A program made the position numbers and the translations under genes. The notes beneath the pieces were generated by a model. The model had not been told where the DNA came from. It made no database searches and saw only the letters and a program-made list of their open reading frames with translations. From Rhodovulum bhavnagarense (GTDB taxonomy: Bacteria > Pseudomonadota > Alphaproteobacteria > Rhodobacterales > Rhodobacteraceae), in the NCBI RefSeq assembly GCF_004343505.1, contig NZ_SLXU01000001.1, forward strand, positions 248,001 through 312,000: a DNA stretch of 64,000 bases. The letters run 5' to 3'. Below are positions 31,261 to 49,430 of the stretch, in pieces. Every line of letters starts with the position of its first letter. Within the stretch, counting starts at the first letter, position 1.

Positions 31261-31309
31261 CCGCCACAACGGCTTCCTGGCGTGGCGGGGATATTCATAA
31301 CGGAGCACC
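31261..31309 (+). promoter_or_regulatory. SAM/SAH-type riboswitch upstream of metK
   Basis: The leader shows the features of the SAM/SAH riboswitch class, found in front of metK in Rhodobacterales. A 7-bp stem, CCGCCAC (31261-31267) with GTGGCGG (31282-31288), encloses AACGGCTTCCTGGC. A linker ATATTCATAAC follows, then GGAGCAC (31302-31308), whose GGAG is also the metK ribosome site. Pairing of the loop with GGAGCA would form the pseudoknot and hide that site when SAM is bound, lowering MetK synthesis. Confidence 0.85.
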
Positions 31310-31314
31310 TTCAC

Positions 31315-32481
<1,167 letters not shown>

Positions 32482-32516
32482 GCATCGGTGCCGGGGGCTG
32501 TCCCGGCGTAATTTGC

Positions 32517-32542
32517 GGGTGCGCATCTCGTGATGCGCACCC
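32517..32542 (+). terminator. Strong hairpin after metK
   Basis: Perfect 11-bp stem GGGTGCGCATC / GATGCGCACCC with a TCGT loop. The downstream sequence is only modestly T-rich (GTTCGTGTTT), so termination may be partial. Confidence 0.7.
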
Positions 32543-32614
32543 GTTCGTGTTTCCGGAACACGTTACCCAGACTGTCTCTTGTGCGGGGCCTTGACCCCGC
32601 GATCCCCGCATCCT

Positions 32615-33343
32615 ATGGCGCGCGGCATGATCGATAGCCCCACTCCCCCGTACCGTGCCTGGCGAAACTTTTATGGCCGCCGCCACGGCAAGACCCTGCG
32701 TGACGGTCAGAAAAGCGTTCTTGACCAGGATCTGGCGCGGCTTTCGCCCGGACCTGTCGATTGGGACGAAAACCCCCTGCGCGAGCCGTTGGACCTTGCG
32801 GCACGGTTCGGGGAAGGGCGCGAGATCTGGCTTGAGATCGGCTTTGGCGGGGGGGAACACATGGTCCACCAGGCCGCCGCCAATCCCGAGGTTGCGATCA
32901 TCGGATGCGAGCCGTTCATCAACGGTGTCGCCATGTTGCTGGGCAAGTTGCGCGCGGCGGGGGTAAACAATGTCGCGGTGCATCCGGGTGACGCGCGCGA
33001 CCTTTTCGATGTCTTGCCCGAGGCCAGCCTTTCGCGGGCGTTCCTGCTCTATCCCGATCCCTGGCCCAAGAAGAAACACCACCGGCGCCGTTTCGTCACC
33101 CCCGAACACCTGGCCCCGCTCGCCCGCGTGATGAAGCCCGGTGCCAGCCTGCGCATTGCCACGGATATTCCCGACTATGTTCGCCAGTCCTTGCTGGAGG
33201 TGCCGCGTGCGGGGTTTGACTGGCTGGCCGAGGGGCCGGCGGATTGGCGCAACCCATGGGATGACTGGATATCCACCCGTTACGAGAAAAAGGCGCTGCG
33301 CGAAGGCCGCACGCCCCATTACCTGAGCTTTAGCCGCCGCTGA
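32615..33343 (+). CDS. trmB: tRNA (guanine-N7-)-methyltransferase
   Basis: Forms m7G46 in tRNA. The 242-residue class I methyltransferase has the SAM motif WLEIGFGGGEHMVHQAA (about residues 72-88) and the TrmB hallmark LLYPDPWPKKKHHRRRF, then GASLRIATDIPDYV and PTRYE-like STRYEKKALREGR. ATG 32615 or 32627 may be used; the earlier frame is not conserved. It is convergent with rpmB. Confidence 0.93.
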   Translation: MARGMIDSPTPPYRAWRNFYGRRHGKTLRDGQKSVLDQDLARLSPGPVDWDENPLREPLDLAARFGEGREIWLEIGFGGGEHMVHQAAANPEVAIIGCEPFINGVAMLLGKLRAAGVNNVAVHPGDARDLFDVLPEASLSRAFLLYPDPWPKKKHHRRRFVTPEHLAPLARVMKPGASLRIATDIPDYVRQSLLEVPRAGFDWLAEGPADWRNPWDDWISTRYEKKALREGRTPHYLSFSRR

Positions 33344-33400
33344 GTGTTCGTTGCCATATGCCTTGGGGACGGGGCTGGCACGGACCGACGGCGCAAACAC

Positions 33401-33430
33401 GAAAACCCCGCGTACTATGCACGCGGGGCC
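33401..33430 (-). terminator. Terminator of rpmB
   Basis: On the minus strand, CCCCGCGT-GCATAGT-ACGCGGGG is followed by TTTT. It lies 23 bp after the rpmB stop. Confidence 0.85.
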
Positions 33431-33452
33431 GATATCACAAACGCGACAGGGA

Positions 33453-33740
33453 TCAGGCGGTGGCCTGGGCCTTGGCGATATCTTTCTTGATTTTCAGCGC
33501 CTTCTCGGACAGTTCCGCGTCGCGCGCCTTGGCAAGGAAGGCGTCCAGCCCGCCGCGATGGTCCACTGTGCGCAGTGCCGAGGCAGACACGCGCAGCTTG
33601 TACGAACGGCCAAGTACGTCCGAAATCAGCGTCACGTCATTGAGGTTCGGCAGGAACCGGCGCCTGGTCTTGTTATGGGCGTGGCTGACATTGTTGCCCG
33701 TCATCGGCCCTTTTCCGGTCAGTTCGCAGACACGCGACAT
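33453..33740 (-). CDS. rpmB: 50S ribosomal protein L28
   Basis: Large-subunit ribosomal protein of 95 residues. The start [29 protein letters not shown] and the core [24 protein letters not shown] are typical of the longer alphaproteobacterial L28. The N-terminal zinc Cys motif is reduced to a single Cys. An AAGGAA site precedes the ATG at 33740; the longer frame upstream is not L28. Transcribed alone. Confidence 0.96.
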
Positions 33741-33843
33741 GGGTTTTTTCCTTGTCTCGACTAATAGGATCGGCGCCGCAAGCCGCAGCGCCGCGAATTC
33801 AGTCCGGGTCAGATACGGGCAATCGACAGGGGCGTCAAGCGAT

Positions 33844-34593
33844 TCATCGCCGCCGCTCGCGGGCATATCGCGCCACGAAGCGTTGCAGGATTGCCTCGGG
33901 CACATGCACGTCCTCGACCCGACACATCGCAACCAACCCGGCCGCGGTCTCGGGCGGGAAATAGCCGCGATCCTTGTAGATGCGAATCCGCACCTCGAAA
34001 CCGTCGCTATCCGCCTCGGGGTGGAATTGCGTGGCATAGACGTTTTGTCCGAACCGGATCATCTGGAACGGGCAGGGGGCAGAGGCCAGAAGATGCACAC
34101 ATCCCGCAGGCAGGGTCTGCACCGCCTCCTTGTGGCCGACAAAGGCGCGGAACGCCTCCGGCAATCCCTTCAACAGCGGGTCGGCCCGGCCCTCCGGGGT
34201 CAGCAGGCAGGTTGTCGCGCCCACGGCTTCGGCAAATTTCTCTTTCGTGACCGTCGCGCCCAGGTGGTGGGCAAGGATGCCGATCCCGTAACAACAGCCC
34301 ATGAAGGGAAAATCGCGTGTCGTGATCTCGGGCATCAGCCCCAGCACCGCCGCCTCTATGCGCGCCTCGACATCGGTCTTCTTGTCCGGCGGATCTGATA
34401 CACAGCCCGGTCCGCCCCCCACGATCACGCCGGAATAGTCGTCCAGCGATATCTCGTCGGGCAGGTCTTGCCGATCCAGCCGGATGCGGTGCGCCTGGTC
34501 GGCGCGCAGGCCGCCCTTGCGCAGGATCGCGGCGAACTCGTCATCCGAGGCCTCGGTCTCGGGACGCAACTGGAGGATCAGAAAGGGTTTCAG
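33844..34593 (-). CDS. Class I glutamine amidotransferase-like protein, probable CTG start
   Basis: A 249-residue amidotransferase related to the GMP-synthase GATase domain. The nucleophile Cys is in [10 protein letters not shown], the His-x-Glu pair in ATQFHPEAD, and [11 protein letters not shown] is near the start. The substrate partner is not known; it stands alone, without a synthetase. No ATG or GTG opens the frame. The only standard start is TTG at 34569, which would cut off conserved [15 protein letters not shown] at 34593 overlaps the meaB stop as CTGA and gives a natural beginning, so I use it. It is translationally coupled to meaB. Confidence 0.8.
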
Positions 34594-35573
34594 GAGGTTA
34601 TTCCCAAGGTTTCGAGCATCTCGGAGGTGGCGCGCGCGACGCTCAGATCGCCCCTTGCCACCTGGTCGCCCAGTGCGGCCATCCGCGCGCGCGCCGCCGC
34701 GTCACGTTCCAGCCGCGCGAGGAGCCCGCGCCGGACCTCTTCCCCGAACCAATAGCGCGCCTGTTCGGCCCGTCGGGTGTCGAAATGCCCCTGTTCGCGC
34801 CGCCACAGGGCCAGTTGCTGCATTTCGTCCCAGGCCCGCTCAAGGCCTGCTTCTTCCAGCGCCGACACGCACATGGCCTTGGGAAAGCCCTCTGGGTCTT
34901 GCGGACGGCGGCGCAACAGTCGCAATGCGCCCGCGTAATCGGCCCGCGTGCGTTCCGCCGCCGGTTTCAGGTCACCATCGGCCTTGTTGACAAGGATCAG
35001 GTCCGCCATTTCCATGATGCCGCGCTTGACCCCCTGCAACTCGTCGCCGCCCGCCGGTGCCATCAGCAGGATAAACAGGTCGGTCATCTCGGCCACCATC
35101 GTTTCCGACTGGCCCACGCCCACCGTCTCGATCAGCACGATGTCAAACCCGGCCGCCTCGCACAGGCTTACCGCCTCGCGGGTACGCCGCGCCACGCCAC
35201 CCAGCGCCGACTGGCTGGGCGAGGGTCGGATGAAAGCGGCCGGATCGCGCGAGAGACGTTCCATCCGCGTCTTGTCGCCGAGGATCGACCCGCCCGATCG
35301 CGCCGAGGAAGGGTCAACCGCCAAGACCGCCACCTTGTGGCCCATCCCGGTGAGAAGGATGCCGAAACTCTCGATAAAGGTCGACTTGCCCACACCGGGC
35401 GTGCCTGACAGCCCCAGCCGCAGCGCCTGTCCCGGTGTCGCGGTCAACGCATCCAGCAACGCCCGGGCCTGCACCCGGTGATCGGCCCGGCCGCTCTCGA
35501 CCAGGGTAATCGCGCGGGCAAGCGCCCGGCGCTCGCCGTTGCGGATACGGCTGGCCAATTCGTCTGTCTGCAT
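34590..35573 (-). CDS. meaB: Methylmalonyl-CoA mutase-associated GTPase MeaB
   Basis: G3E-type chaperone GTPase that protects and reloads the B12-dependent mutase. The 327 residues include the P loop [15 protein letters not shown], the Mg-binding [20 protein letters not shown], the switch ETVGVGQSE and the G4 motif VNKADGD. ATG 35573 has GGAGG just upstream; a GTG two codons earlier is possible. The mutase itself is not in the window. It overlaps the next gene by four bases and is divergent from hrpB. Confidence 0.94.
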
Positions 35574-35684
35574 TGCCACCTCCGGTCCATCGGGCCGTCG
35601 CCTCTTGGCGCGTGTCTTGCCGCGTGCGCGCGGGGCTGTCCAGCCCTCTGGCGTGCGCGGATGATTTCGCCCATAACCCGGCTC

Positions 35685-38135
35685 ATGACGCCGCTACCCA
35701 TCGATGCCGTTTTGCCAGAGCTCGCACAGGCCCTTGCCAGTGCCGGCCGCGCGGTGTTGCAAGCGCCCCCCGGCGCGGGCAAGACCACTCGCGTGCCGCT
35801 GGCCCTGCTCGAGGCTGGGCTGGTAGAGGGGCGCATCGTGATGCTGGAACCCCGGCGACTGGCTGCCCGTGCGGCTGCCGAGCGCATGGCTGAAATGCTG
35901 GGTGAAAAAGTCGGACAGACCGTCGGCTACCGCATCCGGGGCGAGTCGAAACTTGGCAAGGCCACGCGGATCGAGGTGGTGACAGAGGCCGTCCTGACGC
36001 GCATGATCCAGTCCGATCCCGCGCTTTGTGGCATTGGCGCGGTGATCTTCGACGAGTTCCACGAACGCTCCCTCAATGCCGATCTTGGCCTTGCCCTGAC
36101 ATGGGAGCTGCGCGAGGCCCTGCGCGACGATCTGATCGTTCTGGTGATGTCGGCCACGCTTGATGCCGCGCCGGTCGCCGCGCTGATGGACAATGCGCCC
36201 GTGATTACCTCGCAGGGGCGCAGCTTTCCGGTCGAAACCCGCTGGCTGGACCGGCCCCTGCCCAAGGGCGCGCGCCTGCCCGAGGCCATTGCCGACCTGG
36301 TGGCGCACGCCCTGGCCGAGACCGAGGGGGGCGTGCTGGTCTTCCTGCCCGGCGAGGGTGAGATCCGGCGCACCGCAACCGCGCTGGCTGGTCGCCTGCC
36401 GCCCGGCTGCCATATCCGCCCGCTTTATGGCGCGCTTTCCCTTTCCGAGCAACGCGCCGCGATCCGTCCCGCGCCGGACGGGCGCAAGCTGGTACTGGCT
36501 ACAGCCATCGCCGAAACCTCCCTGACCATCGAAGATGTGCGCGTCGTGGTCGATTCAGGCCGCGCCCGCCGCGCCCGGTTCGACCCCGGTTCGGGGATGT
36601 CGCGGCTGGTGACCGAACGCGTCACCCGTGCCGAGGCAGACCAGCGTCGCGGCCGTGCGGGCCGAGTGGCGCCGGGCACCTGCTACCGGCTCTGGACCCG
36701 CGGCGAAGAAGGCGCCTTGGCGCCTTATCCACCCGCCGAGATCGAGGTGGGCGACCTGACGGGGCTCGCGTTGGACCTTGCGCTCTGGGGCACCGACGAT
36801 CCGGCCGAGATGGCTTTCCTGACTGCTCCCAATCCCGGTGCGCTGGCCGGGGCGCGTAGCCTTCTGGCCCGGTTGGGGGCGCTTGACGGGAGCGGGCGCA
36901 TCACCGATCACGGCCGCCGACTTGCCAGCCTGCCGGTGCACCCTCGCCTCGGTCACATGCTGGAGATCGCGGGAAAACAGGCCGCGCCCCTGGCAGCGGT
37001 GCTGACAGATCGCGACCCTTTGCGCGGTGCTGGAAGTGATCTTGCCTTGCGTCTTAAGACTATCGCGGATCCCGGGGCGCCCTGTCCCGTTCCGCCCGAC
37101 CGGGGCGCCCTGGCCCGCATCCGGGACGAGGCCCGGCGGCTGGCCGCGCTTGTCCCCGACGGCCCCCGCCCGATGCCGCCGGGGGAAATGGCCGCCCTTG
37201 CCTATCCCGACCGGGTGGGCTTGCGGCGCAAGGGGGACGATGCGCGCTATGTGCTGTCGGGCGGCAAGGGGGCGGTTCTGGATGCGGAAGACGCGCTGGC
37301 CGGGCAGCGCCTGGTCGTGGCGCTCGATCTTGACGGCGACGCGCGCGAGGCGCGCATCCGCCTGGCCGTGGCTTTGGGCGAGAGCGAATTGCGGGCAAGC
37401 CATTGTCATGCCATCCGCTGGTACGATCTCTGCATCTGGTCGCGCCGCGAAAACCGCGTGATCGCGCGTCGGCAGGAACGCTTCGGTGCGCTGGTGCTGG
37501 AGGACCGGCCCTGGACAGATGCGCCGCCCCAGGCGATCGCCGCCGCCATGGTCGAGGGTGTCCGCCTGCTGGGCCTGCCCTGGTCAGAGGCCGCCCGCCG
37601 CTTGCAGGCACGCGTGGAATTGCTGCGCCACGAGGGCGTGCAACTGCCCGATTTTTCCGACACGGCCCTGATGGGCCGACTGGAAGAGTGGCTGTTGCCG
37701 GTCCTCGACGGGGTGAAAACCGCCGAAGACCTGAAACGCTTCGACATGTTGCCCGCCCTCAAGGCAATGTTGAGCTGGGAAGACCAACACGCCCTCGACC
37801 GTCTTGCCCCGGCCTGTTTCGAAACCCCGCTTGGCCGCCGTGTCCCGATCGATTACAACGGTGCCGTTCCCGCGATCGAACTCCGGCTCCAGGAACTGTT
37901 CGGCACGACCGAACACCCGGTAATCGGCCCCAGACGCCTGCCGCTCAGGATCACGCTGCTGTCGCCCGCGCATCGACCGGTTCAGGTCACCATGGACTTG
38001 CCGGGCTTCTGGGCCTCGTCCTATGCCGAAGTGCGCAAGGACATGCGCGGGCGCTATCCCAGGCATCCCTGGCCAGAAGATCCGACCCGCGCCGATCCGA
38101 CCCTGCGCGCGCGCCCGCGCGGTTCGCGCGGCTGA
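35685..38135 (+). CDS. hrpB: ATP-dependent helicase HrpB
   Basis: DEAH-box RNA-helicase-like protein of 816 residues, the normal HrpB length. It shows motif [15 protein letters not shown], motif II DEFHERS, motif III SATLD, motif [20 protein letters not shown], the HA2 region and the HrpB C-terminal domain ending [26 protein letters not shown]. The role in bacteria is poorly defined. The start 35685 is chosen as the first Met next to the conserved [13 protein letters not shown]. It is convergent with argF across a REP-like element. Confidence 0.94.
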
Positions 38136-38189
38136 CGGCACTGCCCGCGCGCAGTTCGCGCGTTGGATCTGCTGGCCTGAGGTGTGACG

Positions 38190-38263
38190 CCTTCGGCGAG
38201 GATATTTTTCCCAAAGCAGGGTCAGGTGCCGTGCGCTGTCCAGATGCTTTGGTTGAAATATCC
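38190..38263. repeat. REP-like element, copy 2, with inverted arms
   Basis: Begins with CCTTCGGCGAGGATATTTTT, then CCCAAAGCAGG, matching the repeat at 18531. Arms GGATATTTTTCCCAAAGC (38200-38217) and GCTTTGGTTGAAATATCC (38246-38263) pair in 15 of 18 positions. A downstream GC hairpin (GTCGCCCGGTGACGGGCGAC) follows. It lies between the convergent hrpB and argF and probably ends transcription in both directions. Confidence 0.7.
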
Positions 38264-38305
38264 CGGGGGAGTCGCCCGGTGACGGGCGACGGGGGCAGAG
38301 CCCCC

Positions 38306-39232
38306 TCAGACCCCGAGGCAGTGGCGCATGATCGCCTTTTGCGCATGAAGACGGTTTTCCGCCTCGTCGAACACGACCGAGGCCGGGCCGTCCATCACCG
38401 CGTTGGTCACCTCTTCCTCGCGATGGGCGGGCAGGCAGTGCATGAACAGAGCGTCAGGCTTGGCCGCGGCCATGAGCCGCTCGTTCACCTGGTAGGGGCG
38501 CAACTGGTTGTGTCGCCTTTCGCGCGCGGATTGGGCGTCATGCATCGATATCCATGTGTCGGTGACGACCAGGTCGGCGCCCTCGACCGCTCTAAGCGGA
38601 TCGCGCTCGATCTCGGCCTTGACGCCGGATATGCGCGCTTCGTTCAGAAAGCCCGGTTCCGGGTCCAGCATCGGCGGGCCCGTGAAGGTGATGTCGAAGC
38701 CGAAGCGCCCGGCCGCCTGGATCAGCGACGCGCAGACATTGTTGCCATCGCCCGACCAGACCACCTTGCGCCCGGCGATCGGGCCGCGATGTTCCTCGTA
38801 GGTCAGGATATCTGCCATGATCTGGCAGGGATGGGTGCGGTTGGTCAGCCCGTTGATCACCGGCACCGTGGCAAATTCGGCCATTTCCAGGAGCGTTGCC
38901 TCCTCGAAGGTGCGGATCATGATCAGGTCGACATAGCGCGACAGCACCCGCGCGGTGTCGGCGATGGTCTCGCCATGGCCGAGCTGCATGTCGCTGCCGG
39001 ACAGGACCATGGTCTGCCCGCCCATCTGGCGCACGCCAACATCAAAGCTGACGCGTGTCCGGGTAGAAGGTTTTTCGAAGATCAGCGCGACCATCCGCCC
39101 GGCCAGCGGCTGTTCATCGTCTGGACTGCCCTTGGGGCGTCCCGCGCGGGCCTCTTTCATCCTGCGTGCCTGGTCGATCATCGCCCTGAGCGCCGCGGGA
39201 TCGGTGGAGTTGATGTCGAGGAAATGGGTCAT
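38306..39232 (-). CDS. argF: Ornithine carbamoyltransferase
   Basis: Makes citrulline from ornithine and carbamoyl phosphate. The 308-residue protein shows [13 protein letters not shown], the HPCQ motif in [11 protein letters not shown], and HCLPAHR with the active Cys. ATG overlaps the argD stop by four bases. It is the last gene of argD-argF, so the leader described upstream of argD would govern both. Confidence 0.95.
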
Positions 39233-40422
39233 TGCCCGGTCTCCTTGCCTGAAAGTGCCGTTGCTGCGGCGTCCAGCCGGGCTACGGCCTCGGCGATTTC
39301 ATCGTCGGTGATGGTCAGCGGCGGCAGCAGGCGCACCACGTTGTCGGCGGCCGGAACCGTCAGCAGGCGCTGCGCATACCCCGCATGCACCACGTCGGTA
39401 TTCGTCACCTTGCATTTCAGCCCCAGCATCAGGCCCTGACCGCGCACCGTTTCGAACACCTCCGGGTGCGAGTCGACCAAACCCTCCAGCCTCTGCCGCA
39501 GAAGGCCAGCCTTGCGGCCCACCTCTTCAAGGAAGGCCGGCTCGGCCACGATATCCAGAACCGCCTTGCCCACCGCACAGGCCAGCGGATTGCCGCCATA
39601 GGTCGATCCGTGGGTTCCCGCCGTCATGCCGCTGGCGGCGTTTCCGGTCGCCAGAACCGCGCCCAGTGGAAAGCCGCCCCCGATCCCCTTGGCAACCATC
39701 ATGATGTCGGGTGCCGCGCCCTCGGCCCATTCATGGGCGAACAACCGCCCGGTCCGGCCCATTCCGCATTGCACCTCGTCATAGATCAATAGTGCCCCGG
39801 TTGCATCGCAAAGCTCGCGCAGGCCCCTCAGGCAGGGGGCGGGCAGGGGACGAATGCCGCCTTCGCCCTGGACGGGTTCGACCAGGATCGCGGCGATGGT
39901 ATCGTCCATGGTATTCTGCAAGAGCGCGTCATGGGTGCCGAAGGGAAGGTGGATGAAGCCGGGCAGGAGCGGGCCGAAGCCCTTGGTCATCTTGTCAGAC
40001 CCGGCCGCAGCGATCCCCGCCGACGACCGGCCGTGGAACGCGCCCGAAAAGGTGACGATGTTGACCCGATCGGGTTGGCCCTTGTCGTACCAGTACTTGC
40101 GGGCCATCTTGACCGCCAGCTCGCACGATTCCGTGCCTGAATTGGTAAAGAACACCGTGTCGGCAAAAGTCTTTTCCACCAGCGCATCGGCCAGCGCCAC
40201 CTGTTCGGGGATCTGGTAGAGGTTGGACAGGTGCCAGAGCTTGCCGGCCTGTTCGGTCAGCGCGGCGACCAGGGCGGGGTGCGCATGACCCAGCGCGTTG
40301 ACCGCGATTCCGGCGCCCATGTCCAGGTATCGGGCTCCATCCGTTGCGATCAGCCAGGTGCCTTCGCCCCGGTCAAAGGCGAGGGGCGCGCGGTTGTAGG
40401 TCGGCAGGACGGAGGGGGTCAT
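39229..40422 (-). CDS. argD: Acetylornithine aminotransferase
   Basis: PLP enzyme of arginine synthesis, 397 residues, class III aminotransferase. Visible are [30 protein letters not shown], the PLP Asp in [15 protein letters not shown] and the Lys in [18 protein letters not shown]. The start [21 protein letters not shown] is the alphaproteobacterial form. The long open frame upstream is shadow sequence from the ZIP gene. Overlap with argF shows an operon; a leader ORF lies 105 bp upstream. Confidence 0.94.
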
Positions 40423-40519
40423 GGGAAGAAATCCTGGGATGTGGAAACCAAAGGGGTGCCCCAGCCACGGGGGCAAGTCAATGCAGGTCGGGGGGACGCG
40501 TTGGCGCACGCGCGGGCGG

Positions 40520-40536
40520 CCGGTCCTCAGGACCGG
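40520..40536 (-). promoter_or_regulatory. Hairpin at the end of the arg leader ORF
   Basis: Perfect 7-bp stem CCGGTCC / GGACCGG whose loop is the TGA stop codon of the leader peptide. A second stem (TGCCCC / GGGGCA, 40457-40475) lies between it and argD. No clear T run follows either stem. Confidence 0.5.
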
Positions 40537-40577
40537 CGGGGACGTCGCAGTGCGCGAATGTGAAACCCGTGTTTCAT
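40527..40577 (-). CDS. Candidate arginine leader peptide upstream of argD
   Basis: A 16-codon ORF reading [16 protein letters not shown], with five Arg codons in its last nine. AAGG lies about 9 bases before the ATG. It is on the argD strand, in the 206-bp gap before argD, and its stop codon is the loop of a perfect hairpin. This is what a translation-sensing attenuator for arginine genes would look like: ribosome stalling at the Arg codons would unfold the hairpin. The function is inference from layout and composition. Confidence 0.5.
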
Positions 40578-40628
40578 GACGCTGTGCCTTAACCGGGACC
40601 GGGGCGCTTGTCCAGTGTGATCGCGGGT

Positions 40629-41402
40629 TTAGCCCAGCGTCACGTCGAGGATCATCATCAGGATCAGCCCTGCGGTCAGGCCCGTGGTCGCGCGGTTCTG
40701 ATGGCCGTGGCGATGGGTTTCGGGGATGATCTCGTGACTGATGATATAGATCATCGCCCCCGCCGCAAAGGCCAGCCCCCAGGGCAGCAGGTGTTCCGAG
40801 ACCGAGACCGCCGCCGCGCCCAGCACACCGCCCACCGGTTCGATCAGGCCGGTGGCCAGCGCGATGAGGAAGGCGCTCTTGCGCCGATAGCCTTGCCCGC
40901 GCAGCGCGACGGCCACCGCAAGTCCTTCGGGGGCGTTCTGCAATCCGATTCCGGCGGCCAGTGACAGCCCGTTGGCCACGTTTCCGCCGCCAAAGCCGAC
41001 GCCAACGGCCATGCCTTCGGGGAAGTTGTGGATCGTGATGGCGAAGACGAAAAGCCATATCTTTGCAAGTGCGGCGGCCTCGGCGCCTTCGCGGCCGGCA
41101 ATGAAATGTTCGTGGGGCACGTGTTCGTTCAGCGCGGCGACCGCCACTGCGCCCAGCGCGATTCCCGTGCCCGCGATCAGCGCGGCCAGCAGCACGCTGT
41201 TGTAAAGGTCGCGGGCGGCATCGATCCCCGGCAGGATCAGCGAGAAGAACGAGGCCGACAGCATCACCCCGGCCGCAAAGCCGAGCATCGTGTCATTGGA
41301 CCTGCGCGAGACCGTGCGACCGAACAAAACCGGAAGAGCCCCGACGCCGGTCATCAGGCCGGCGGCAAGCGAGGCGATGAGGCCAAGGGCGAGAATGCTC
41401 AT
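40629..41402 (-). CDS. ZIP-family divalent metal transporter
   Basis: Inner-membrane metal importer, 257 residues, eight predicted helices. The ZIP metal-site motifs are clear: HNFPEG in helix 4 and QNAPEG in helix 5, and HEIIPE in helix 6. A short His-rich loop (HVPHEHF) precedes helix 4 and another (HRHGHQN) follows helix 6. Likely substrate Zn2+ or Fe2+. ATG 41402 begins the first helix. Divergent from lldD. Confidence 0.9.
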
Positions 41403-41440
41403 GGCGCCTGAATGACCGATGGACGCGTCCCGAGCAATAG

Positions 41441-41474
41441 GCAAGCACCGTTGCGGGGCAAGCACCGTTGCGGC
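41441..41474. repeat. Tandem 17-bp duplication
   Basis: GCAAGCACCGTTGCGGG is followed at once by GCAAGCACCGTTGCGGC in the divergent gap upstream of lldD. There are two units only. It is probably a simple duplication, though it could double a regulator half-site. Confidence 0.6.
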
Positions 41475-41523
41475 ATCCTTTCGGGATTGGTAAGGGAACC
41501 TGACCAACGCAAGGATCCCAGCC

Positions 41524-42687
41524 ATGCCCGTGATCACCAGTATCGAAGACTTGCGACGCCTCTATGAACGCCGCGTGCCGAGGATGTTTTACGACTATTG
41601 CGAAACGGGCAGCTGGACGGAACAGACATTCCGCGAGAACAGCTCTGATTTCGCCGATATCCGCCTGCGCCAGCGCGTCGCCGTGGACATGGAGGGACGC
41701 AGCACCGCGTCACGCATGATCGGGCAGCAGGTGGCAATGCCGGTGGCGCTGGCGCCCGTCGGCCTGACGGGCATGAACACCGCCGATGGCGAGATAAAGG
41801 CGGCCCGCGCCGCCGAGAGGTTCGGCGTGCCCTTCACGCTGTCCACGATGTCGATCTGTTCGATCGAGGACGTGGCGGCGCATACCGAAAAACCCTTCTG
41901 GTTCCAGCTTTACGTGATGCGCGACCAGGAATTCGTCGAAAACATCCTTGATCGCGCGCGCAACGCGGGATGCTCGGCGCTGGTGCTGACGCTAGACCTT
42001 CAGATCCTGGGCCAGCGCCACAAGGACCTCAAGAACGGGTTGTCTGCCCCGCCGAAACTGACGCTGCCCACGATGGTGAACCTCGCCACCAAGTGGCGTT
42101 GGGGGGCGGGGATGCTGGGCACGAAACGGCGGTTTTTCGGCAATATCGTCGGGCATGCGCGCGGCGTCACGGATGCCTCAAGCCTGATGACATGGACGGC
42201 GGAACAGTTCGATCCCCGGCTCGACTGGGACAAGGTGCGAAAGCTCAAGGACATGTGGGGCGGCAAGCTGATCCTCAAGGGCATCCTGGATGCCGAGGAC
42301 GCCCGCCGCGCCGCCGATGTGGGGGCCGATGCGATCGTGGTGTCGAACCACGGCGGTCGGCAACTGGACGGGGCGATTTCGGCGATCCGGGCATTGCCGG
42401 GGATCGTGCGCGCGGTGGGCGACCGGGTCGAGGTGCATTTCGACAGCGGCATCCGGTCCGGGCAGGACGTGCTCAAGGCAATCGCTCTGGGGGCAAAGGG
42501 CACCTATATCGGCCGATCCTACATTTATGGGTTGGGCGCGATGGGCGAGGCGGGCGTGACCCGCGCGCTGGAGGTGATCCACAAGGAGCTGGACACCACC
42601 ATGGCGCTGTGCGGGCGCAAGTCGATCGCGGGGCTGGACCGCGACATCCTGCTGGTTCCGCAGGATTTCGAGGGGAAATGGGCCTGA
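41524..42687 (+). CDS. lldD: FMN-dependent L-lactate (alpha-hydroxyacid) dehydrogenase
   Basis: Oxidises an L-2-hydroxyacid, most likely L-lactate, and passes electrons to quinone. The 387-residue TIM-barrel shows the FMN-binding N-terminal region (PRMFYDYCETGSWTEQTFREN), LAPVGLTGMN, and the catalytic signature VSNHGGRQLDG with the active His, then DSGIRSGQDVLKA. Glycolate or mandelate oxidation are alternatives. It stands alone between a divergent ZIP gene and rplY. Confidence 0.88.
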   Translation: MPVITSIEDLRRLYERRVPRMFYDYCETGSWTEQTFRENSSDFADIRLRQRVAVDMEGRSTASRMIGQQVAMPVALAPVGLTGMNTADGEIKAARAAERFGVPFTLSTMSICSIEDVAAHTEKPFWFQLYVMRDQEFVENILDRARNAGCSALVLTLDLQILGQRHKDLKNGLSAPPKLTLPTMVNLATKWRWGAGMLGTKRRFFGNIVGHARGVTDASSLMTWTAEQFDPRLDWDKVRKLKDMWGGKLILKGILDAEDARRAADVGADAIVVSNHGGRQLDGAISAIRALPGIVRAVGDRVEVHFDSGIRSGQDVLKAIALGAKGTYIGRSYIYGLGAMGEAGVTRALEVIHKELDTTMALCGRKSIAGLDRDILLVPQDFEGKWA

Positions 42688-42792
42688 GCGGCCTTTTTGT
42701 CCCTTTCCATTTGTTCCGTGCTCGGCTAAGGGCACGGCTTCATCCGGGCATACACCCTTGGAGGATGCCCATAACCCAGGAGACCGAACAAC

Positions 42793-43419
42793 ATGGCTGG
42801 TGAGATTCCCGATCTTCACGCCACGGAACGGACGAGGACAGGCAAGGGGGCCGCTCGTCAGTCGCGCCGCGATCAACTCGTTCCGGGCATCGTCTATGGT
42901 GGCGGGGCAGATCCGCTCCCGATCGACATCAAGTATAATGAACTTATCAAGCGTCTCAAGGCAGGCCGGTTCCTGTCGACGCTTTTCAACCTCAAGGTCG
43001 AAGGCCAGGAGGACGTGCGCGTGATCTGTCGCGGCGTGCAACGCGACGTTGTCAAGGATCTGCCGATCCATGTCGACCTCATGCGCCTGCGCCGTATCTC
43101 GCGGATCAACCTGTTCATTCCCGTTGAGTTCGTTGGCGAGGAAAAGTCGCCTGGCCTCAAGAAGGGTGGCGTGCTGACCGTGGTGCGCCCCGAGGTGGAA
43201 CTGGTCGTGACCGCAGGCGACATTCCCGAAAAGATCACCGTCGACTTGTCGGGCCTCGACATCAACGACATCGTCCATATCAACGATGTCGTACTGCCCG
43301 AAGGCGCGACACCGACGATCACCGACCGGAACTTCGTGATCGCCAACATCTCGGCACCGTCGGGGCTGCGCGCCGCGGGCGATGAGGATGGCGAAGGCGA
43401 GGAGGGCGGCGAGGCCTGA
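42793..43419 (+). CDS. rplY: 50S ribosomal protein L25 (Ctc form)
   Basis: 5S rRNA-binding protein with the long general-stress (Ctc) C-terminal domain, 208 residues. Seen are [32 protein letters not shown] and the beta-rich C-terminal domain, ending in an acidic Glu/Gly tail. It follows a 105-bp gap. In many relatives pth comes next; here pth is about 7 kb away. Confidence 0.95.
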
Positions 43420-43445
43420 GGCCTGCCCTGACCTGGCAATCGGAG

Positions 43446-43472
43446 CGGGGCCCCAATCGGGGCCCCGTTTTC
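43446..43472 (+). terminator. Terminator after rplY
   Basis: Stem CGGGGCCCC-AATC-GGGGCCCCG followed by TTTTCGTT. Confidence 0.9.
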
Positions 43473-43567
43473 GTTGTGGCGCGCCATTCCTACGCTGGCT
43501 TGGTGCTGGACCGGGCCGCGCACATGCGCTAGGCCCCGGCTGCCGGAACCCTGCAAGGAGGCGCCCG

Positions 43568-44920
43568 ATGTCCGCCCATGGCGACCCGATCCCGATGACC
43601 GCCCGCTGCGCCGGCCCGTTGCGTGGCACTGCCCATGTGCCGGGCGACAAGTCGATCAGCCACCGCGCGCTGATCCTGGGCGCGCTGAGCGTGGGCGAAA
43701 CCCGGATCACCGGCCTTCTGGAGGGGCAGGACGTTCTGGACACCGCCCGCGCGATGCGGGCCTTCGGTGCCGAAGTCGCGCATCTGGCCCCCGGCGAATG
43801 GGTCGTTAACGGTGTCGGCACGTGCGGTTTTGCCGAACCCGAGGACGTGATCGATTGCGGCAATTCGGGAACCGGGGTGCGGCTGATCATGGGGGCGATG
43901 GCGACCTGCCCGATCACGGCGACCTTTACCGGCGATGCCTCGTTGCGCAGCCGGCCGATGGGGCGCGTCACCGACCCGCTGGCGCTGTTCGGCGCGCGGG
44001 CCCATGGGCGCGGGGGCGGGCGGTTGCCGATGACGATCGTCGGCGCGGCAGACCCGGTGCCGGTGCGCTATGCGGTGCCGGTGCCCTCGGCGCAGGTGAA
44101 ATCCGCGGTGCTGCTGGCGGGCCTCAACGCACCCGGCGAAACCGTGGTGATCGAGCGCGAGGCGACGCGCGATCATACCGAGCGGATGCTTGCCGGGTTC
44201 GGCGCGGCCCTGCGGGTGGAAGAAGCGGCCGAGGGCCGGGTCATCACGCTCATCGGCCAGCCCGAGTTGAAACCCCAGGCCATCGCCGTGCCACGCGATC
44301 CAAGTTCGGCCGCCTTCCCGGTCTGCGCGGCGCTGATCGTCGAGGGCTCGGACGTGCTGGTGCCGGGCATCGGGCTGAACCCCACCCGCGCGGGGCTGTT
44401 CACGACGCTGCGCGAGATGGGGGCCGACCTGACCTATGAAAACGAGCGCGAAGAGGGCGGCGAGCCGGTTGCCGACCTGCGCGCCCGTTTCTCGCCCGAC
44501 ATGAAGGGCATCGAGGTCCCGCCCGAGCGCGCGCCCGCCATGATCGACGAATACCCGATCCTGGCCGTGGTCGCGGCCTTTGCCGAGGGGCCGACCGTGA
44601 TGCGCGGCATTCGCGAATTGCGGGTCAAGGAAAGCGACCGCATCGCCGCGATGGCCGACGGTCTGACGGCCTGTGGCGTGCGGGTCGAAACCGGCGAGGA
44701 CTGGATGATCGTGCACGGGATGGGCGCGGGCGGGATGCCGGGCGGGGCTATCTGCGCCACCCACCTCGACCATCGGATCGCGATGTCCTTCCTGTGCGCG
44801 GGGCTTGCGGCGGTGGCGCCGGTTACGGTGGATGATGTCGGGCCGATTTCGACCTCTTTCCCGGTGTTCGACCCCTTGATGGAAGGGCTTGGCGCGCAGT
44901 TCGAGCGGGCCGAGACATGA
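43568..44920 (+). CDS. aroA: 3-Phosphoshikimate 1-carboxyvinyltransferase (EPSP synthase)
   Basis: Shikimate pathway enzyme, 450 residues, closer in length to the class II type. Visible are [17 protein letters not shown], the glyphosate/PEP loop [22 protein letters not shown]-like [11 protein letters not shown] and [22 protein letters not shown] precedes the ATG. It overlaps cmk by four bases; aroA-cmk-rpsA is a common order. In the conserved GNAGT site the residue is Ser (GNSGT), a position known from class II enzymes. Confidence 0.95.
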
Positions 44921-45525
44921 GTTTCACCGTTGCTATCGATGGCCCCGCCGCTGCGGGCAAGGGCACCATCAGCCGCGCGGTTGCAGCGCATTTCGGCTTT
45001 GCCCATCTTGATACCGGGCTTTTGTATCGCGCGGTGGCGGCGCGTATGCTGGACGGGTTTGACCCGGTCGTTGCGGCGCAGGGGCTGGACCCGGCCCATC
45101 TTGAGCGGGGCGATCTGCGTAGTCCCGCCGTCAGCCAGGCCGCCAGCAAGGTGGCCGCCATTGCCGAGGTGCGCGCCGCGCTCGTGGATTTTCAGCGCGC
45201 CTTTGGTGCGCGGGCGGGCGGGGCGGTTCTGGACGGGCGCGATATCGGCACCGTGATCTGCCCCGAGGCCGAGGTTAAGCTGTTCGTGACCGCATCTGAC
45301 GAGGTGCGCGCCGAACGGCGCTGGCGTGAATTGGCGGCCGGCGGTGTCGACACCACCCCGGCCGATGTGCTGGCCGAGATTCGCGAACGTGATCGCCGTG
45401 ATAGTGCGCGCGCCACCGCACCCTTGCGCCCTGCCGAAGATGCCTTTGTTCTGGACACGTCGCGGATGTCGATCGACGAGGCCGTGGCGGCTGCCATCTC
45501 GGCGATCGGCGAAAGGCAGCGCTGA
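44917..45525 (+). CDS. cmk: Cytidylate kinase
   Basis: Phosphorylates CMP and dCMP. The 202-residue P-loop kinase shows [20 protein letters not shown] at the start, [26 protein letters not shown] and [18 protein letters not shown] overlaps the aroA stop. A terminator-like hairpin separates it from rpsA. Confidence 0.95.
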
Positions 45526-45620
45526 CGGGCCGGTTGGCCGTGCGCCCCCTTGCGGGATGGCGCGTCAGCCTGTATAGGGCACCCGTCGAAAGGCCGAAAG
45601 AGCCACAGGGACTCCGGGCA

Positions 45621-45654
45621 GGGTCGGGCAAGCACCGGCCCTTCTTGTTTTTTT
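45621..45654 (+). terminator. Terminator-like hairpin in the cmk-rpsA gap
   Basis: Stem GGGTCGG-GCAAGCA-CCGGCCC (one G-T pair) followed by TTCTTG and a seven-T run. It lies 94 bp before rpsA and could end cmk transcripts or attenuate read-through into rpsA. Confidence 0.7.
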
Positions 45655-45747
45655 CCTTGTTGCTACGCGCCACGCAGACCAACCCAAGACCGGCGGAGAC
45701 AACCGCCCGGCCGGAAAAAACGACTTGTAAAGGAAACACGAGACCAC

Positions 45748-47430
45748 ATGGCTCAGATCGCATCCATGGAGGAATTCGAAGCCCTCCTGAAAGAAAGCTT
45801 CGAGATCGACACGCCCGAAGAGGGCAGCGTCGTCAGGGGCAAGGTCATCGCCATCGAGGCGGGCCAGGCCATCATCGATGTCGGCTACAAGATGGAAGGC
45901 CGCGTCGATCTGAAAGAATTCGCCAATCCGGGTGAGGCCGCCGAGATCGAGATCGGCGACGAGGTCGAGGTGTTCCTCGATCGTGTGGAAAACGCCCGCG
46001 GCGAGGCCGTCATCAGCCGTGACAAGGCCCGCCGCGAAGAAGCGTGGGATCGCCTGGAAAAGGCCTATGCCGAGGATGCGCGCGTCGAGGGTGCAATCTT
46101 TGGCCGCGTCAAGGGTGGCTTTACCGTCGATCTGGGCGGCGCCGTGGCCTTCCTGCCCGGCAGCCAGGTCGATGTGCGCCCCGTGCGCGATGCCGGCCCG
46201 CTGATGGGTCTGAAACAGCCCTTCCAGATTCTCAAGATGGATCGCCGCCGCGGCAATATAGTGGTCTCGCGCCGCGCCATCCTGGAAGAATCCCGTGCCG
46301 AGCAGCGCGCCGAGATCATCGCCAAGCTGACCGAAGGCGACGCGGTGGATGGTGTCGTCAAGAACATCACTGAATACGGTGCCTTCGTGGACCTGGGCGG
46401 TGTGGACGGCCTGCTGCACGTCACAGACATGGCCTGGCGCCGCGTCAACCACCCGTCGGAAATCCTGTCGATCGGCGAGACCGTCAAGGTTCAGGTCATC
46501 AAGATCAACAAGGAAACCCATCGTATCAGCCTGGGCATGAAACAGCTTCAGGCCGATCCGTGGGATGCGGTCGAAGCCAAGTTCCCGATGGGCACCGTCC
46601 ACAAGGGCCGCGTGACCAACATCACCGATTACGGTGCATTCGTGGAGCTGGAGCCGGGCGTCGAGGGTCTGGTCCATGTCAGCGAAATGTCCTGGACCAA
46701 GAAGAACGTCCATCCCGGCAAGATCGTGTCCACCTCGCAAGAGGTCGATGTCATGGTGCTGGAGATCGACACCGCCAAGCGCCGCGTGTCGCTGGGTCTG
46801 AAACAGACCATGCGCAACCCGTGGGAAGTCTTCGCCGAGACCCACCCGGTCGGCACCGAGGTCGAGGGCGAGGTCAAGAACATCACCGAGTTCGGTCTGT
46901 TCATCGGTCTGGATAACGACATCGATGGCATGGTGCACCTCTCTGATCTCAGCTGGGACCAGCGTGGCGAGGATGCGATCCAGGACTATCGCAAGGGCGA
47001 CATGGTCAAGGCCGTCGTCACCGAGGTGGATGTCGAGAAAGAGCGTATCTCGCTGTCCGTCAAGGCCCTGGAAGGCGATCCCTTTGCCGAGGCTGTCGGC
47101 GGCGTCAAGCGCGGTTCGATCATCACCGTGACCGTGACCGCGATCGAGGAAGGCGGGATCGAGGTGGAATACGAGGGTATGAAGTCCTTCATCCGCCGCT
47201 CCGACCTCAGCCGCGACCGTGCCGAACAGCGCCCCGAGCGGTTCCAGGTCGGCGATCATGTCGATGTGCGCGTGACCAATATCGACAGCAAGTCGCGCCG
47301 CCTGGGCCTGTCGATCAAGGCCCGCGAGATTGCCGAAGAGAAAGAGGCCGTCGAACAGTATGGCAGCTCTGACTCGGGCGCGTCGCTGGGCGACATCCTG
47401 GGCGCCGCCCTCAAGGGCGACGACAAGTAA
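45748..47430 (+). CDS. rpsA: 30S ribosomal protein S1
   Basis: RNA-binding protein of the 30S platform that helps load mRNA. The 560 residues hold six S1 (OB) domains. The most regular are the central ones (GVVKNITEYGAFVDLGGVDGLLHVTDMAW; GRVTNITDYGAFVELEPGVEGLVHVSEMSW; GEVKNITEFGLFIGLDNDIDGMVHLSDLSW). A large antisense open frame over it is a shadow. An AAAGGAAA site precedes the ATG. Confidence 0.97.
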   Translation: MAQIASMEEFEALLKESFEIDTPEEGSVVRGKVIAIEAGQAIIDVGYKMEGRVDLKEFANPGEAAEIEIGDEVEVFLDRVENARGEAVISRDKARREEAWDRLEKAYAEDARVEGAIFGRVKGGFTVDLGGAVAFLPGSQVDVRPVRDAGPLMGLKQPFQILKMDRRRGNIVVSRRAILEESRAEQRAEIIAKLTEGDAVDGVVKNITEYGAFVDLGGVDGLLHVTDMAWRRVNHPSEILSIGETVKVQVIKINKETHRISLGMKQLQADPWDAVEAKFPMGTVHKGRVTNITDYGAFVELEPGVEGLVHVSEMSWTKKNVHPGKIVSTSQEVDVMVLEIDTAKRRVSLGLKQTMRNPWEVFAETHPVGTEVEGEVKNITEFGLFIGLDNDIDGMVHLSDLSWDQRGEDAIQDYRKGDMVKAVVTEVDVEKERISLSVKALEGDPFAEAVGGVKRGSIITVTVTAIEEGGIEVEYEGMKSFIRRSDLSRDRAEQRPERFQVGDHVDVRVTNIDSKSRRLGLSIKAREIAEEKEAVEQYGSSDSGASLGDILGAALKGDDK

Positions 47431-47456
47431 CAGACCGTTCGAGGTCTGAAACAGAA

Positions 47457-47485
47457 CGGCCCCGCCAGCTCGGCGGGGCCGTTTT
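47457..47485 (+). terminator. Terminator after rpsA
   Basis: Stem CGGCCCCGCC / GGCGGGGCCG with an AGCTC loop and TTTT. A small 6-bp hairpin (CAGACC / GGTCTG, 47431-47448) lies just before it. Confidence 0.92.
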
Positions 47486-47710
47486 CGTGTCAGCGAATCA
47501 TGGATGCCCCGGGCTGCGTGCGGAGGTGAACCTTATGGCGATTCCCGCGGTCAAGAACAAAAAGCGCGCCGAAACAGCGCATAAAAGGCTGGCGTGCCCA
47601 TGTTTTTTCCGCCTTTTCAAGGCTTTCTGTTTCTTCGTGGTGCAATTCGTGGCTATAGTCTCGACAGCTTCTCCGAGGGGTTTATTGGTGTTGAACAGGG
47701 ACAGGGCCGC

Positions 47711-47992
47711 ATGATCCGCTCCGAATTGATACAGAAGATTGCCGACGAGAACCCGCATCTCTATCAGCGTGATGTCGAAAAGATCGTGAATACCATCTTT
47801 GAAGAGATCATCGCGGCAATGGCCCGTGGTGACAGGGTCGAATTGCGGGGCTTTGGCGCGTTCTCGGTCAAGAGGCGCGACGCGCGCACCGGGCGCAATC
47901 CGCGCACGGGGGAATCGGTCGAGGTCGATGAAAAGCACGTGCCCTTCTTCAAGACCGGCAAGCTCCTTCGGGACCGGCTGAACGGAAAATAA
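47711..47992 (+). CDS. ihfB: Integration host factor, beta subunit
   Basis: DNA-bending protein of the HU/IHF family, 93 residues. It shows [29 protein letters not shown], the arm sequence [23 protein letters not shown] and the end [15 protein letters not shown]. The start MIRSEL is the IHF-beta form, and the preceding 140 bp do not code convincingly. It is followed after 16 bp by the LapA-domain gene and then trpF, a frequent order in this group. Confidence 0.94.
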
Positions 47993-48008
47993 AAGAGACA
48001 GAGCCAAC

Positions 48009-48359
48009 ATGCGTTACATTCGCCTACTTTTCCTGCTTGTTCTCGCGCTGTGCCTGGTCGTGGTCGCGATGGCCAATAATGTCATGGTCACGCTGACGCT
48101 CTTGCCGCAGGAGCTTGCGACCTTCTCGGGCGTGTCACAGTCGATTGACCTGCCGCTATACGTCGTTGGCTTTGGCGGGGTGCTGGTGGGTCTGCTGGTC
48201 GGTTTCATCTGGGAATGGATGCGCGAGAGTAAATACCGCTCGACCGCGTCCCGCCAGAAACGCGAGAATGCCAAGCTCAAGCGCGAGCTTGACAAGGTCA
48301 ACGCCGAGAAACACCGCAACGAAGGCCGCGACGAGGTTCTGGCCCTCGTCGAGAAATAG
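48009..48359 (+). CDS. lapA: LapA-domain inner-membrane protein
   Basis: A 116-residue protein with two membrane helices (about 3-24 and 45-68) and a C-terminal charged coiled coil ([25 protein letters not shown]). The LapA (lipopolysaccharide assembly A) domain spans the helices. E. coli LapA works with LapB to control LpxC and LPS assembly. Here it is co-transcribed with ihfB and trpF. Domain call is firm; equivalence of function is inferred. Confidence 0.8.
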
Positions 48360-48381
48360 GCGCGCTGTACCATCCCGCGCC

Positions 48382-49038
48382 ATGGGCACGGATATCCGCA
48401 TAAAGATCTGCGGCCTGCACACACGGGCCGCCATCGCCCAGGCGGCAAGCCTGGGCGTTGCCTATATCGGCCTTGTCTTTTTTCCCAAATCCCCCCGCCA
48501 CCTCGATATCGAAGAGGCTCGCGCGCTGGCGCTGGATACGCCGCCGGGGATGGCCAAGGTCGCGCTGACGGTCAATGCCGAGGATGCCGCGATCGAGGCA
48601 ATCCTGAACCGCGTGCCGATAGACATGCTGCAACTGCACGGCGCTGAAACGCCGGGGAGGGTTGCAGAGGTTCGCGCCCGGTTCGGTTTGCCGGTGATGA
48701 AGGCGGTGGGCGTTGCCGGGGCAGAGGACCTGCCCGCTCTTGATGCCTATGCACGCGTGGCCGACCAGATCCTCGTCGATGCCAAGCCGCCAAAGGGCGC
48801 CGATCTGCCCGGCGGCAACGGGCTTGCCTTTGACTGGCAACTGATTGCGAAGCGCAGATGGGCGGTGCCCTGGATGCTTGCCGGTGGTCTCACGCCCGAA
48901 AACGTCGCGGCGGCGATCCGGTTGACCGGGGCGCGGCAGGTTGATGTTTCCTCGGGGGTCGAATCGGCGCCGGGGATCAAGGATGCCGACAAGATGGCCC
49001 GGTTCGTGGCTGCTGCGCGGGGGGAAACGGACGCATGA
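48382..49038 (+). CDS. trpF: Phosphoribosylanthranilate isomerase
   Basis: Third step of tryptophan synthesis from anthranilate. The 218-residue TIM barrel shows the active Cys in [25 protein letters not shown], the Asp in [23 protein letters not shown] and the phosphate site [14 protein letters not shown]...VDVSSGVES. It starts 22 bp after lapA and overlaps the small secreted-protein gene by four bases. Confidence 0.94.
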
Positions 49039-49372: not shown

Positions 49373-49430
49373 CCCCTTGCCGCGCCGCGCCCGCCCGGCT
49401 AGGCAAGGCGGAAACTGGCGGGAGGGCAGC

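Follow-up and report, generated by a model that had tools for sequence, protein, structure and literature searches.

A CGA-rich leader ORF conserved before argD in Rhodobacteraceae is a probable arginine-codon sensor

Introduction

Ribosome-mediated attenuators of the trp, his and leu type combine a short leader ORF holding codons for the product of the pathway, a hairpin that includes some of these codons, and a biosynthetic operon downstream, and their leaders show a biased choice of synonymous codons (PMC1183508; this and all other PMC reports are cited here from partial text). The leader ORF before argD that we describe shares these traits, and differs in that the amino acid is arginine, no U-tract terminator or antiterminator was found, there is apparently no ribosome-binding site, and a second promoter lies between leader and gene. 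Its closest described relatives, as far as the cited texts go, are the cysS leader, trpL and orf34-speF. The uORFC-8-2 motif before cysS comes from the same order, Rhodobacterales, and has an ATG leader with tandem cognate codons for which ribosome-mediated attenuation was proposed (PMC8632094); unlike the argD leader it concerns cysteine, precedes a tRNA synthetase gene and has a U run at the 3' end of its consensus. The trpL of Sinorhizobium meliloti is likewise an alphaproteobacterial leaderless leader ORF before a biosynthetic gene (PMC10117765), with the differences that it responds to tryptophan and that the attenuator yields a functional small RNA, rnTrpL, and peptide. In orf34-speF of Salmonella two consecutive Arg codons sense arginine, termination is Rho-dependent and a hairpin lies past the stop codon (PMC6386406), whereas the gene controlled encodes ornithine decarboxylase, the peptide has a conserved domain, the codons are AGG-CGG (replaceable by CGA-CGA or CGC-CGC) and the leader is long and led by a Shine-Dalgarno (SD) sequence. 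In the CruR uORF of Bordetella, too, leader translation decides Rho-dependent termination over a region with more C than G (PMC9426467), the difference being that copper is sensed through a motif of the nascent protein. A first-pass annotation of the DNA studied here knew of no attenuation leader for arginine genes in Alphaproteobacteria, and we found no description of one in the open-licence literature searched.

The usual account of how bacteria control arginine biosynthesis is repression by ArgR or, in Gram-positives, regulation through T boxes. ArgR (PF01316) was found in 0 of 61 Rhodobacteraceae genomes and in 4 of 142 Alphaproteobacteria genomes, which leaves the regulation of the pathway to be explained; the argD leader offers an answer. 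Here we compare this leader across Rhodobacteraceae and other families. The tiny gene with its slowly read Arg codons is, judged by these comparisons, probably a built-in gauge that would raise argD-argF when arginine is short.

Results

A short Arg-rich ORF lies between a transporter gene and argD-argF

The window is the whole stretch of DNA analysed, 64 kb (64,000 nucleotides) of the 3.15-Mb genome of Rhodovulum bhavnagarense; its features around the leader are collected in Table 1. The arginine operon argD-argF, which the first-pass annotation had placed directly after the leader on the same strand, is borne out by the NF and TIGR models, and argF overlaps the end of argD by 4 nt. The leader sits between argD and an upstream gene for a ZupT-like metal transporter, for which ZupT is the best model, at 129 bits under its cut-off of 252. 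The ORF of 16 codons with five Arg codons near its end is present as had been noticed; these codons are, in order, CGC, CGA, CGT, CGC and CGG, and the terminal run is interrupted (CGA-CGT-CCC-CGC-CGG). By a lax test (at least four Arg in seven codons), 9 of 325 genes of the R. bhavnagarense genome also have an Arg-rich ORF upstream, so the observation in one genome is suggestive and the comparison with relatives decides. A search of a plasmid collection returned matches within argD only, and no tRNA-Arg gene was found in the 400 kb of the genome that were scanned.

Table 1. Features of the argD leader region of R. bhavnagarense, in window coordinates.
Feature	Position	Strand	Remarks
argF, ornithine carbamoyltransferase	38306..39232	-	NF001986 and TIGR00658 above cut-offs
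argD, acetylornithine transaminase	39229..40422	-	NF002325 and TIGR00707 above cut-offs
argD Shine-Dalgarno AGGA	40432..40435	-	seen in the sequence; SD-like motif before argD in 160/164 loci
P2 -10 position CACCCC	40453..40458	-	17 nt past the -35 hexamer; poor -10 in Rhodobacteraceae
Stem B GCCCC-CGTGGCT-GGGGC	40474-40458	-	the "further stem" of the first-pass annotation
P2 -35 box TTGAC	40477..40481	-	putative older argD promoter; 98/99 loci near the window's argD
C-rich, G-poor tract TCCCCCCGACC	40486..40496	-	candidate Rho loading site
Hairpin A GCGCGTGCGCCAACGCG	40513-40497	-	new here; post-stop hairpin in many family members, segments covary
Hairpin S GCCGGTCC-TGA-GGACCGGC	40537-40519	-	perfect 8 bp; loop is the stop codon; last Arg codons in 5' arm
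Leader ORF ATGAAACACGGGTTTCACATTCGCGCACTGCGACGTCCCCGCCGGTCCTGA	40577-40527	-	16 sense codons, five Arg; CGA is codon 11; apparently leaderless
5' hairpin TGAAAC-ACGG-GTTTCA	40561..40576	-	from position and fold; covers part of the leader start codon
P1 -10-like box GTTAAGG	40587..40593	-	putative; the "ribosome site" of the first-pass annotation
P1 -35-like box TGGACA	40609..40614	-	putative; relatives CTGGACA, CTTTACA, CTTTGCA or similar; T 74% at -35
ZupT-like metal transporter gene	40629-41411	-	upstream of the leader

The leader is conserved in Rhodobacteraceae

Of 98 Rhodobacteraceae loci, 96 combine an ATG leader that contains Arg with a TTGAC motif by a lax criterion; the 98 comprise 18 loci that include the window's own, plus the best 80 of 578 relatives of the window's argD. 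Since these loci were chosen for closeness to the window's argD, we drew a fairer sample of 94 other genera, one genome per genus, from which two genomes without an argD match, the window's own genome and G016, G017 and G018 were left out. The leader test asked for an ATG ORF of 7-28 codons, a CGA-holding Arg run ending in the last six residues, and a stop at least 75 nt before argD. Such a leader precedes argD in 73 of the 94 genera. In the controls, 3 of 94 pass when these stretches are read on the reverse strand, and a leader of this kind lies before 11 of 275 other genes of the R. bhavnagarense genome. When CGA is dropped from the test and three Arg in five codons are required instead, 63 of 94 genera pass. 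Within the genus, L008 has the same leader and spacer as Rhodovulum visakhapatnamense (L028).

Among the 21 genera in which the CGA test finds no leader are several whose argD starts with GTG and is less similar. One of the leader-less loci, L221, still has a CGA-rich frame with a GTG start; in four others (L197, L210, L220 and L223) an apparently coding other sequence extends to TTGAC, and TTGAC is present where the leader is absent.

The first-pass annotation had proposed this comparison of argD upstream regions and had been ready to give up its reading had neither ORF nor hairpin been conserved. The outcome spares it on this count: ORF and Arg codons are kept in most relatives, the run is led by CGA, the helices covary (see below) and the stop-codon hairpin occurs in part of the family. 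Judged by this conservation, the leader before argD is not a product of chance.

The leaders favour the codon CGA

We collected 164 distinct leaders without using CGA as a criterion, 94 by Arg content and 70 by the pair RR, and CGA is found in 164 of 164. Two chance-looking RR matches, L224 (no CGA) and L235 (one CGA), were excluded; including them gives 165 of 166. The Arg run opens with CGA in 143 leaders and with CGC in 21. CGA accounts for 281 of the 597 Arg codons within the runs, compared with 13 of the 184 elsewhere in the leaders and 95 of 1552 Arg codons in argD of 94 of the leader-bearing loci. Every two-codon run has CGA first (34 of 34), 23 of them being CGA-CGA, and the commonest run, CGA-CGC-CGA-CGC, accounts for 66 of 91 four-codon runs. 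The preference is not explained by pairing in hairpin S: of the 51 leaders with an S score of at least 5, only 11 have the run's first CGA within S. As these counts indicate, selection is acting on the codon CGA and not only on Arg.

Such conservation at the codon level favours sensing by decoding, and an arginine-codon-sensing leader ORF before argD is, on this comparative footing, well supported. CGA is decoded by an inosine tRNA that also serves CGU and CGC (PMC3711424), and in a Salmonella his-leader assay CGA was slower to be read than CGU and CGC, codons of the same tRNAs (PMC4046918). The equivalence reported for orf34-speF of Salmonella, where the rare CGA-CGA and the frequent CGC-CGC were equally good for arginine sensing, counts against an explanation by the reading speed of CGA (PMC6386406, partial text as above).

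Outside the Arg run the peptide is weakly conserved, Ile 2 (57 of 164), Ile 7 (53) and His 6 (42) being the commonest residues. The stretch CATATC (His-Ile) stands near codons 6-7 in many Rhodobacteraceae leaders, for example L070, L085 and L096, and CATAT is in frame in 37 of its 50 occurrences among the leaders.

CGA-ended leaders precede argD in other families

A second family of Alphaproteobacteria was reached through locus L121; among its 31 genomes 26 have an argD match, and 25 loci hold the argD start (L121, L247-L270). All 25 carry an ATG ORF, 15-27 codons long, in which CGA-CGA or a longer run of CGA stands no further than two codons from the stop. Of the 87 codons in these runs 69 are CGA, whereas in argD 13 of 563 Arg codons are. 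An SD-like motif precedes this leader in 24 of 25, and its stop lies 48-110 nt before argD, about 50-60 nt in most members. Because a promoter-like stretch, TTGAC...NATANT, stands ahead of the ORF in 22 of 25, the second-family leader would lie inside a transcript from a promoter of the P2 type, unlike that of Rhodobacteraceae. Some members have stop-codon hairpins like the window's, for example GAGGC-TGA-GCCTC (L254) and GACGC-TGA-GCGTC (L256), and the S helix score reaches at least 6 in 7 of 25, versus 7% in shuffles. Real S pairs are slightly weaker than swapped ones (4.74 vs 5.04, the real value being reached in 1982 of 2000 permutations); the test runs the opposite way here because the 5' arm hardly varies.

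Among other Alphaproteobacteria families, 8 of 90 loci pass when three of the last seven codons must be Arg, a requirement that misses two-Arg leaders, and just L121 and L327 of these eight combine ATG with at least three CGA. Locus L327, of a third family represented by one genome, has before argD an ORF that reads MTLRVALLRLRRPR up to its stop, with CGA-CGA-CCT-CGA, much like the window's leader.

We tentatively propose that ArgR-less Alphaproteobacteria acquired CGA-ended argD leaders at least twice in different architectures, leaderless with an own promoter in Rhodobacteraceae and SD-led within the argD transcript in the second family, and that the sensor may be the I.A wobble codon CGA as such, read more slowly than the other codons of a tRNA that is otherwise well used, in a switch without an intrinsic terminator/antiterminator pair.

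The leader looks leaderless and two promoters are likely

Of the 164 leaders, 19 have an SD-like motif (AGGA, GGAG, GAGG or AAGG at -18..-5 of the start) before their ATG, or 3 if AAGG is not counted; argD is preceded by such a motif in 160 of 164 loci, or 143 without AAGG. The element GGTTAAGG (40594-40587), which the first-pass annotation took for the ribosome site of the leader, is better read as a -10-like box, as relatives show gCTAAg- or gCTATc-like boxes at that place. The best GCTAAG-like hexamer ends 8-10 nt upstream of the leader ATG in 77 of 94; a YTAN box lies at -18..-8 in no more than 115 of 164, and C stands at -1 of the ATG in 135 of 164. With -35-like and CTA-like boxes before the ATG and SD-like motifs rare at the leader compared with argD, the leader ORF looks leaderless, and its RNA would start at or near the ATG from a promoter that we call P1.

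Between leader and argD lies TTGAC, found in 98 of 99 close loci (54-63 nt upstream of argD in 86 of the 98) and in 84 of the 94 Rhodobacteraceae genera. It also stands within 260 nt of argD in 71 of 90 loci of other families, several of which have TTGACA-N17-GATACT- or GATAAT-like promoters at this position; we thus read it as part of an older argD promoter, P2. The -10 columns of P2 in Rhodobacteraceae read C82 A77 C76 C65 in the logo (pattern CACC(A/C)(A/C), CACCAA- or CACCCC-like). A simple scan of 40380-40720 returned no sigma-70 promoter, and a logo of the sequence downstream of 29 TTGAC sites of the R. bhavnagarense genome gave no -10 signal. Two other readings of these elements were dropped: TTGAC as part of an RNA switch, since leader-less genera keep it and other families show full promoters there, and a sigma-54 site (GG-N10-GC) at GGCACC...GGGC, whose first two G positions vary (G 71% and 78%).

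Four genera (L155, L186, L209 and L222) keep the leader and have no TTGAC 40-110 nt before argD, which suggests that the leader's own promoter P1 can reach argD. Taken with the four TTGAC-only genera (L197, L210, L220 and L223), this leads us to infer that P1 and P2 each can serve argD. A transcription start downstream of 40527, which the first-pass annotation had named as fatal to its reading, thus meets a divided answer: some transcripts may start there, TTGAC matching the -35 box of argD promoters in other families, whereas the four genera without TTGAC speak for a start ahead of the leader.

An inverted repeat overlaps P2 in the window (40453-40481) and in L022, L110, L111, L117 and L131; its arms vary and stay paired. 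It is present even without a leader, and in other families the -10 often lies, by eye, in or beside it. Superimposed on the promoter, the repeat may serve to end transcription that arrives from upstream, covariation having been tested for Rhodobacteraceae only.

Helices around the stop codon covary

The perfect hairpin with the stop codon as its loop, recognised in the first pass, is found as hairpin S. The 64-kb window holds eight perfect hairpins of 8 bp with a 3-nt loop, S among them, so that one within a given 120 bp is an event of about 1-2%. We measured covariation by permutation tests that swap partners between species, over segment pairs; the permutation breaks relatedness, so all z values are too high by some amount. 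Over the 164 leaders the S arms covary (z 6.7 and 7.4, 0 of 1000 permutations reaching the real value), with arms such as GCCGGTCC/GGACCGGC (L001, L014), GCCGGG/CCCGGC (L011, L013), CGAAACC/GGTTTCG (L086) and GACGCTA/TAGCGTC (L070). Long S helices are a minority, a helix score of at least 6 being reached in 26 of 164 leaders versus 5% in shuffles. In many relatives a further helix, H1, pairs nt 2-16 of the leader with nt 5-30 past the stop (z 7.3, 0 of 1000 permutations), for example GAACAAAAGC/GCTTTTGTTC (L033), GATTAAACGC/GTGTTTAATC (L017) and TGATCACCG/CGGTGATCA (L035); in place of H1 the window has the local hairpin over the ATG. The further stem noted before argD in the first pass is stem B, whose outer arms covary in Rhodobacteraceae (T5..19 x T28..42, z 7.0), and a B-like stem occurs also where the leader is absent, as in L197. 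Six control pairings in the same test gave z from -1.1 to 2.0.

The strongest covariation between leader and stem B has z 3.3 (orf mid x T0..12; background spread 1.4), compared with at least 7 for S, A and B, and none stood out between leader and argD ribosome site in the segment-pair permutation tests. Hence no classical switch is visible. In some Rhodovulum, where H1 overlaps hairpin A, there may be an A/H1 switch. Taken in full, the region 40420-40600 shows no better folding than its shuffled versions (z -0.67).

A simple scan of 40380-40720 found 0 intrinsic terminators with a U-tract, and across Rhodobacteraceae the columns after stem B are about 45% T. Before TTGAC, G falls to 3-11% per column at -15..-8 (98 loci). 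The C-minus-G excess of the argD spacer is 0.149 in the window, a value among the highest 5.4% for 280 R. bhavnagarense genes, with a family mean of 0.14 and a value of 0.197 in the second family; as evidence for Rho the C-rich spacer is weak.

Of the layout of translation-coupled attenuation seen in the first pass, the conserved ORF, the Arg codons and in part the hairpin stand, and the codon conservation points to translational sensing; its switch does not, given the lack of a U-tract terminator in the scanned region and of leader-B covariation. Set against the trp type, there is a leader ORF holding codons for the amino acid that the operon makes (the CGA-led run of 73 of 94 genera), and codons within a helix are present in the window's S, with z 6.7-7.4 for S in the family, but long S helices (26 of 164) and a first CGA inside S (11 of 51) are infrequent. 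The other two defining features tested, an intrinsic terminator and a mutually exclusive antiterminator, were not found; trp-style attenuation is not supported, and we do not file the leader as a trp-type attenuator. Its way of working, so far as the evidence reaches, resembles that of a ribosome-mediated leader.

Discussion

A proposed codon-sensing leader ORF that would relieve premature termination

Comparison of relatives brings out the conserved leader, its choice of CGA, the rarity of SD-like motifs before it, the covariation of S, H1, A and B, and the near-invariant TTGAC. The explanation that we find best, and hold to be rather probable, is that a codon-sensing leader ORF governs argD-argF, with a leaderless RNA from P1, a stall at CGA that relieves premature termination, likeliest by Rho, and basal transcription from P2. 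We infer P1 and P2 as promoters, the sensing of tRNA-Arg charge, the termination step and the part of Rho. P1 would start RNA at, or 1-2 bases from, the leader ATG, so that the leader would be translated as a leaderless mRNA. The sensor would be the short CGA-opened Arg run just before the stop, next to or inside the 5' arm of the stop-codon hairpin, CGA presumably being the least readily decoded codon of tRNA-Arg(ICG). When arginine abounds, the ribosome would pass and leave, the leader would refold into S plus either H1 or the local hairpin hiding the ATG, and most P1 RNA would be ended ahead of argD, the likeliest agent being Rho on the C-rich, G-poor stretch. With charged tRNA-Arg scarce, the ribosome would halt at CGA, hold S open and shield the downstream RNA, and P1 RNA would continue into argD-argF. 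A basal supply would come from the older promoter P2, close before argD, which could by itself produce argD mRNA without the leader. We propose termination of the Rho type, relieved by the halted ribosome, because the window offers no intrinsic terminator at this place and the spacer has its excess of C over G. The chain as a whole appears rather probable to us, and the Rho step taken alone less so. Should the switch indeed need no intrinsic terminator, the Rho-dependent leader ORFs would come to include an amino-acid sensor.

Other explanations

A post-transcriptional mechanism like that of speF would have P1 RNA always reach argD, with the position of the ribosome altering argD translation or mRNA decay. 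It would require no terminator; S and A lie past the stop codon as does the hairpin in speF (PMC6386406, from the partial text), and in the second family the leader stop is mostly about 50-60 nt from argD. The argD ribosome site shows no standout covariation with the leader, and we regard this explanation as unlikely.

The leader might instead yield a small RNA or peptide acting in trans, like rnTrpL/peTrpL of Sinorhizobium, its position before argD reflecting an origin as attenuator. S, H1 and hairpin A do form a unit that ends before P2 and has no strong pairing with B, and rnTrpL is also a leaderless small mRNA (PMC10117765, cited from partial text). Apart from the Arg run the peptide is poorly conserved, and the four TTGAC-less genera keep the leader, so that P1 seems to serve argD; we find such a role improbable, and note that trans-acting and cis-regulatory roles do not exclude each other.

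That argD is transcribed from P2 only, the leader being a separate short transcript that interferes with P2 or does nothing for argD, fits the near-invariance of TTGAC in close relatives (98 of 99), the complete TTGACA-N17-GATACT-like promoters that several loci of other families have there, and the TTGAC kept in leader-less L197, L210, L220 and L223. Its small probability follows from the CACCAA- or CACCCC-like sequence at the -10 position in Rhodobacteraceae, from the four genera with a leader and no TTGAC, and from the second family, in which the CGA leader lies downstream of a P2-type promoter in 22 of 25 loci.

Nascent-peptide sensing of free arginine rather than of tRNA charging has precedents, SpeFL and the fungal arginine attenuator peptide being arginine-sensing arrest peptides, and the exit tunnel could hold the Arg-rich C-terminus. 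Such peptides are recognised by conservation apart from the sensed residue, whereas here the best-kept residue is Ile 2 (57 of 164), the residues ahead of the run vary, and the codon CGA is selected and not only Arg; an arrest peptide is on these grounds very improbable. A chance ORF in G+C-rich DNA, for which one could cite the 9 of 325 genes passing the lax Arg test and the 11 of 275 passing the CGA test in the R. bhavnagarense genome, is dismissed by conservation in 73 of 94 genera, in 25 of 25 second-family loci and at the level of the codon.

Further observations

By the same CGA test, leaders stand before other arg genes in 0 of 14 argG loci, 0 of 14 argJ loci, 0 of 15 carA loci (one of which, L374, had a shortened flank) and 1 of 15 argC loci. 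This single argC match is an ATG ORF in L379 that reads MAPAPFQVLRRQ up to its stop and holds CGA-CGA. Looser matches with GTG or TTG starts before other arg genes, and the ATG match L387 before argC, were set aside, as they look like ends of upstream genes. Rfam covariance models run over 30000-50000 up to E 5 gave none on the leader; the sole match is a SAM/SAH riboswitch (RF01727) at 31258-31307 on the plus strand, with 61.4 bits against a gathering score of 40.
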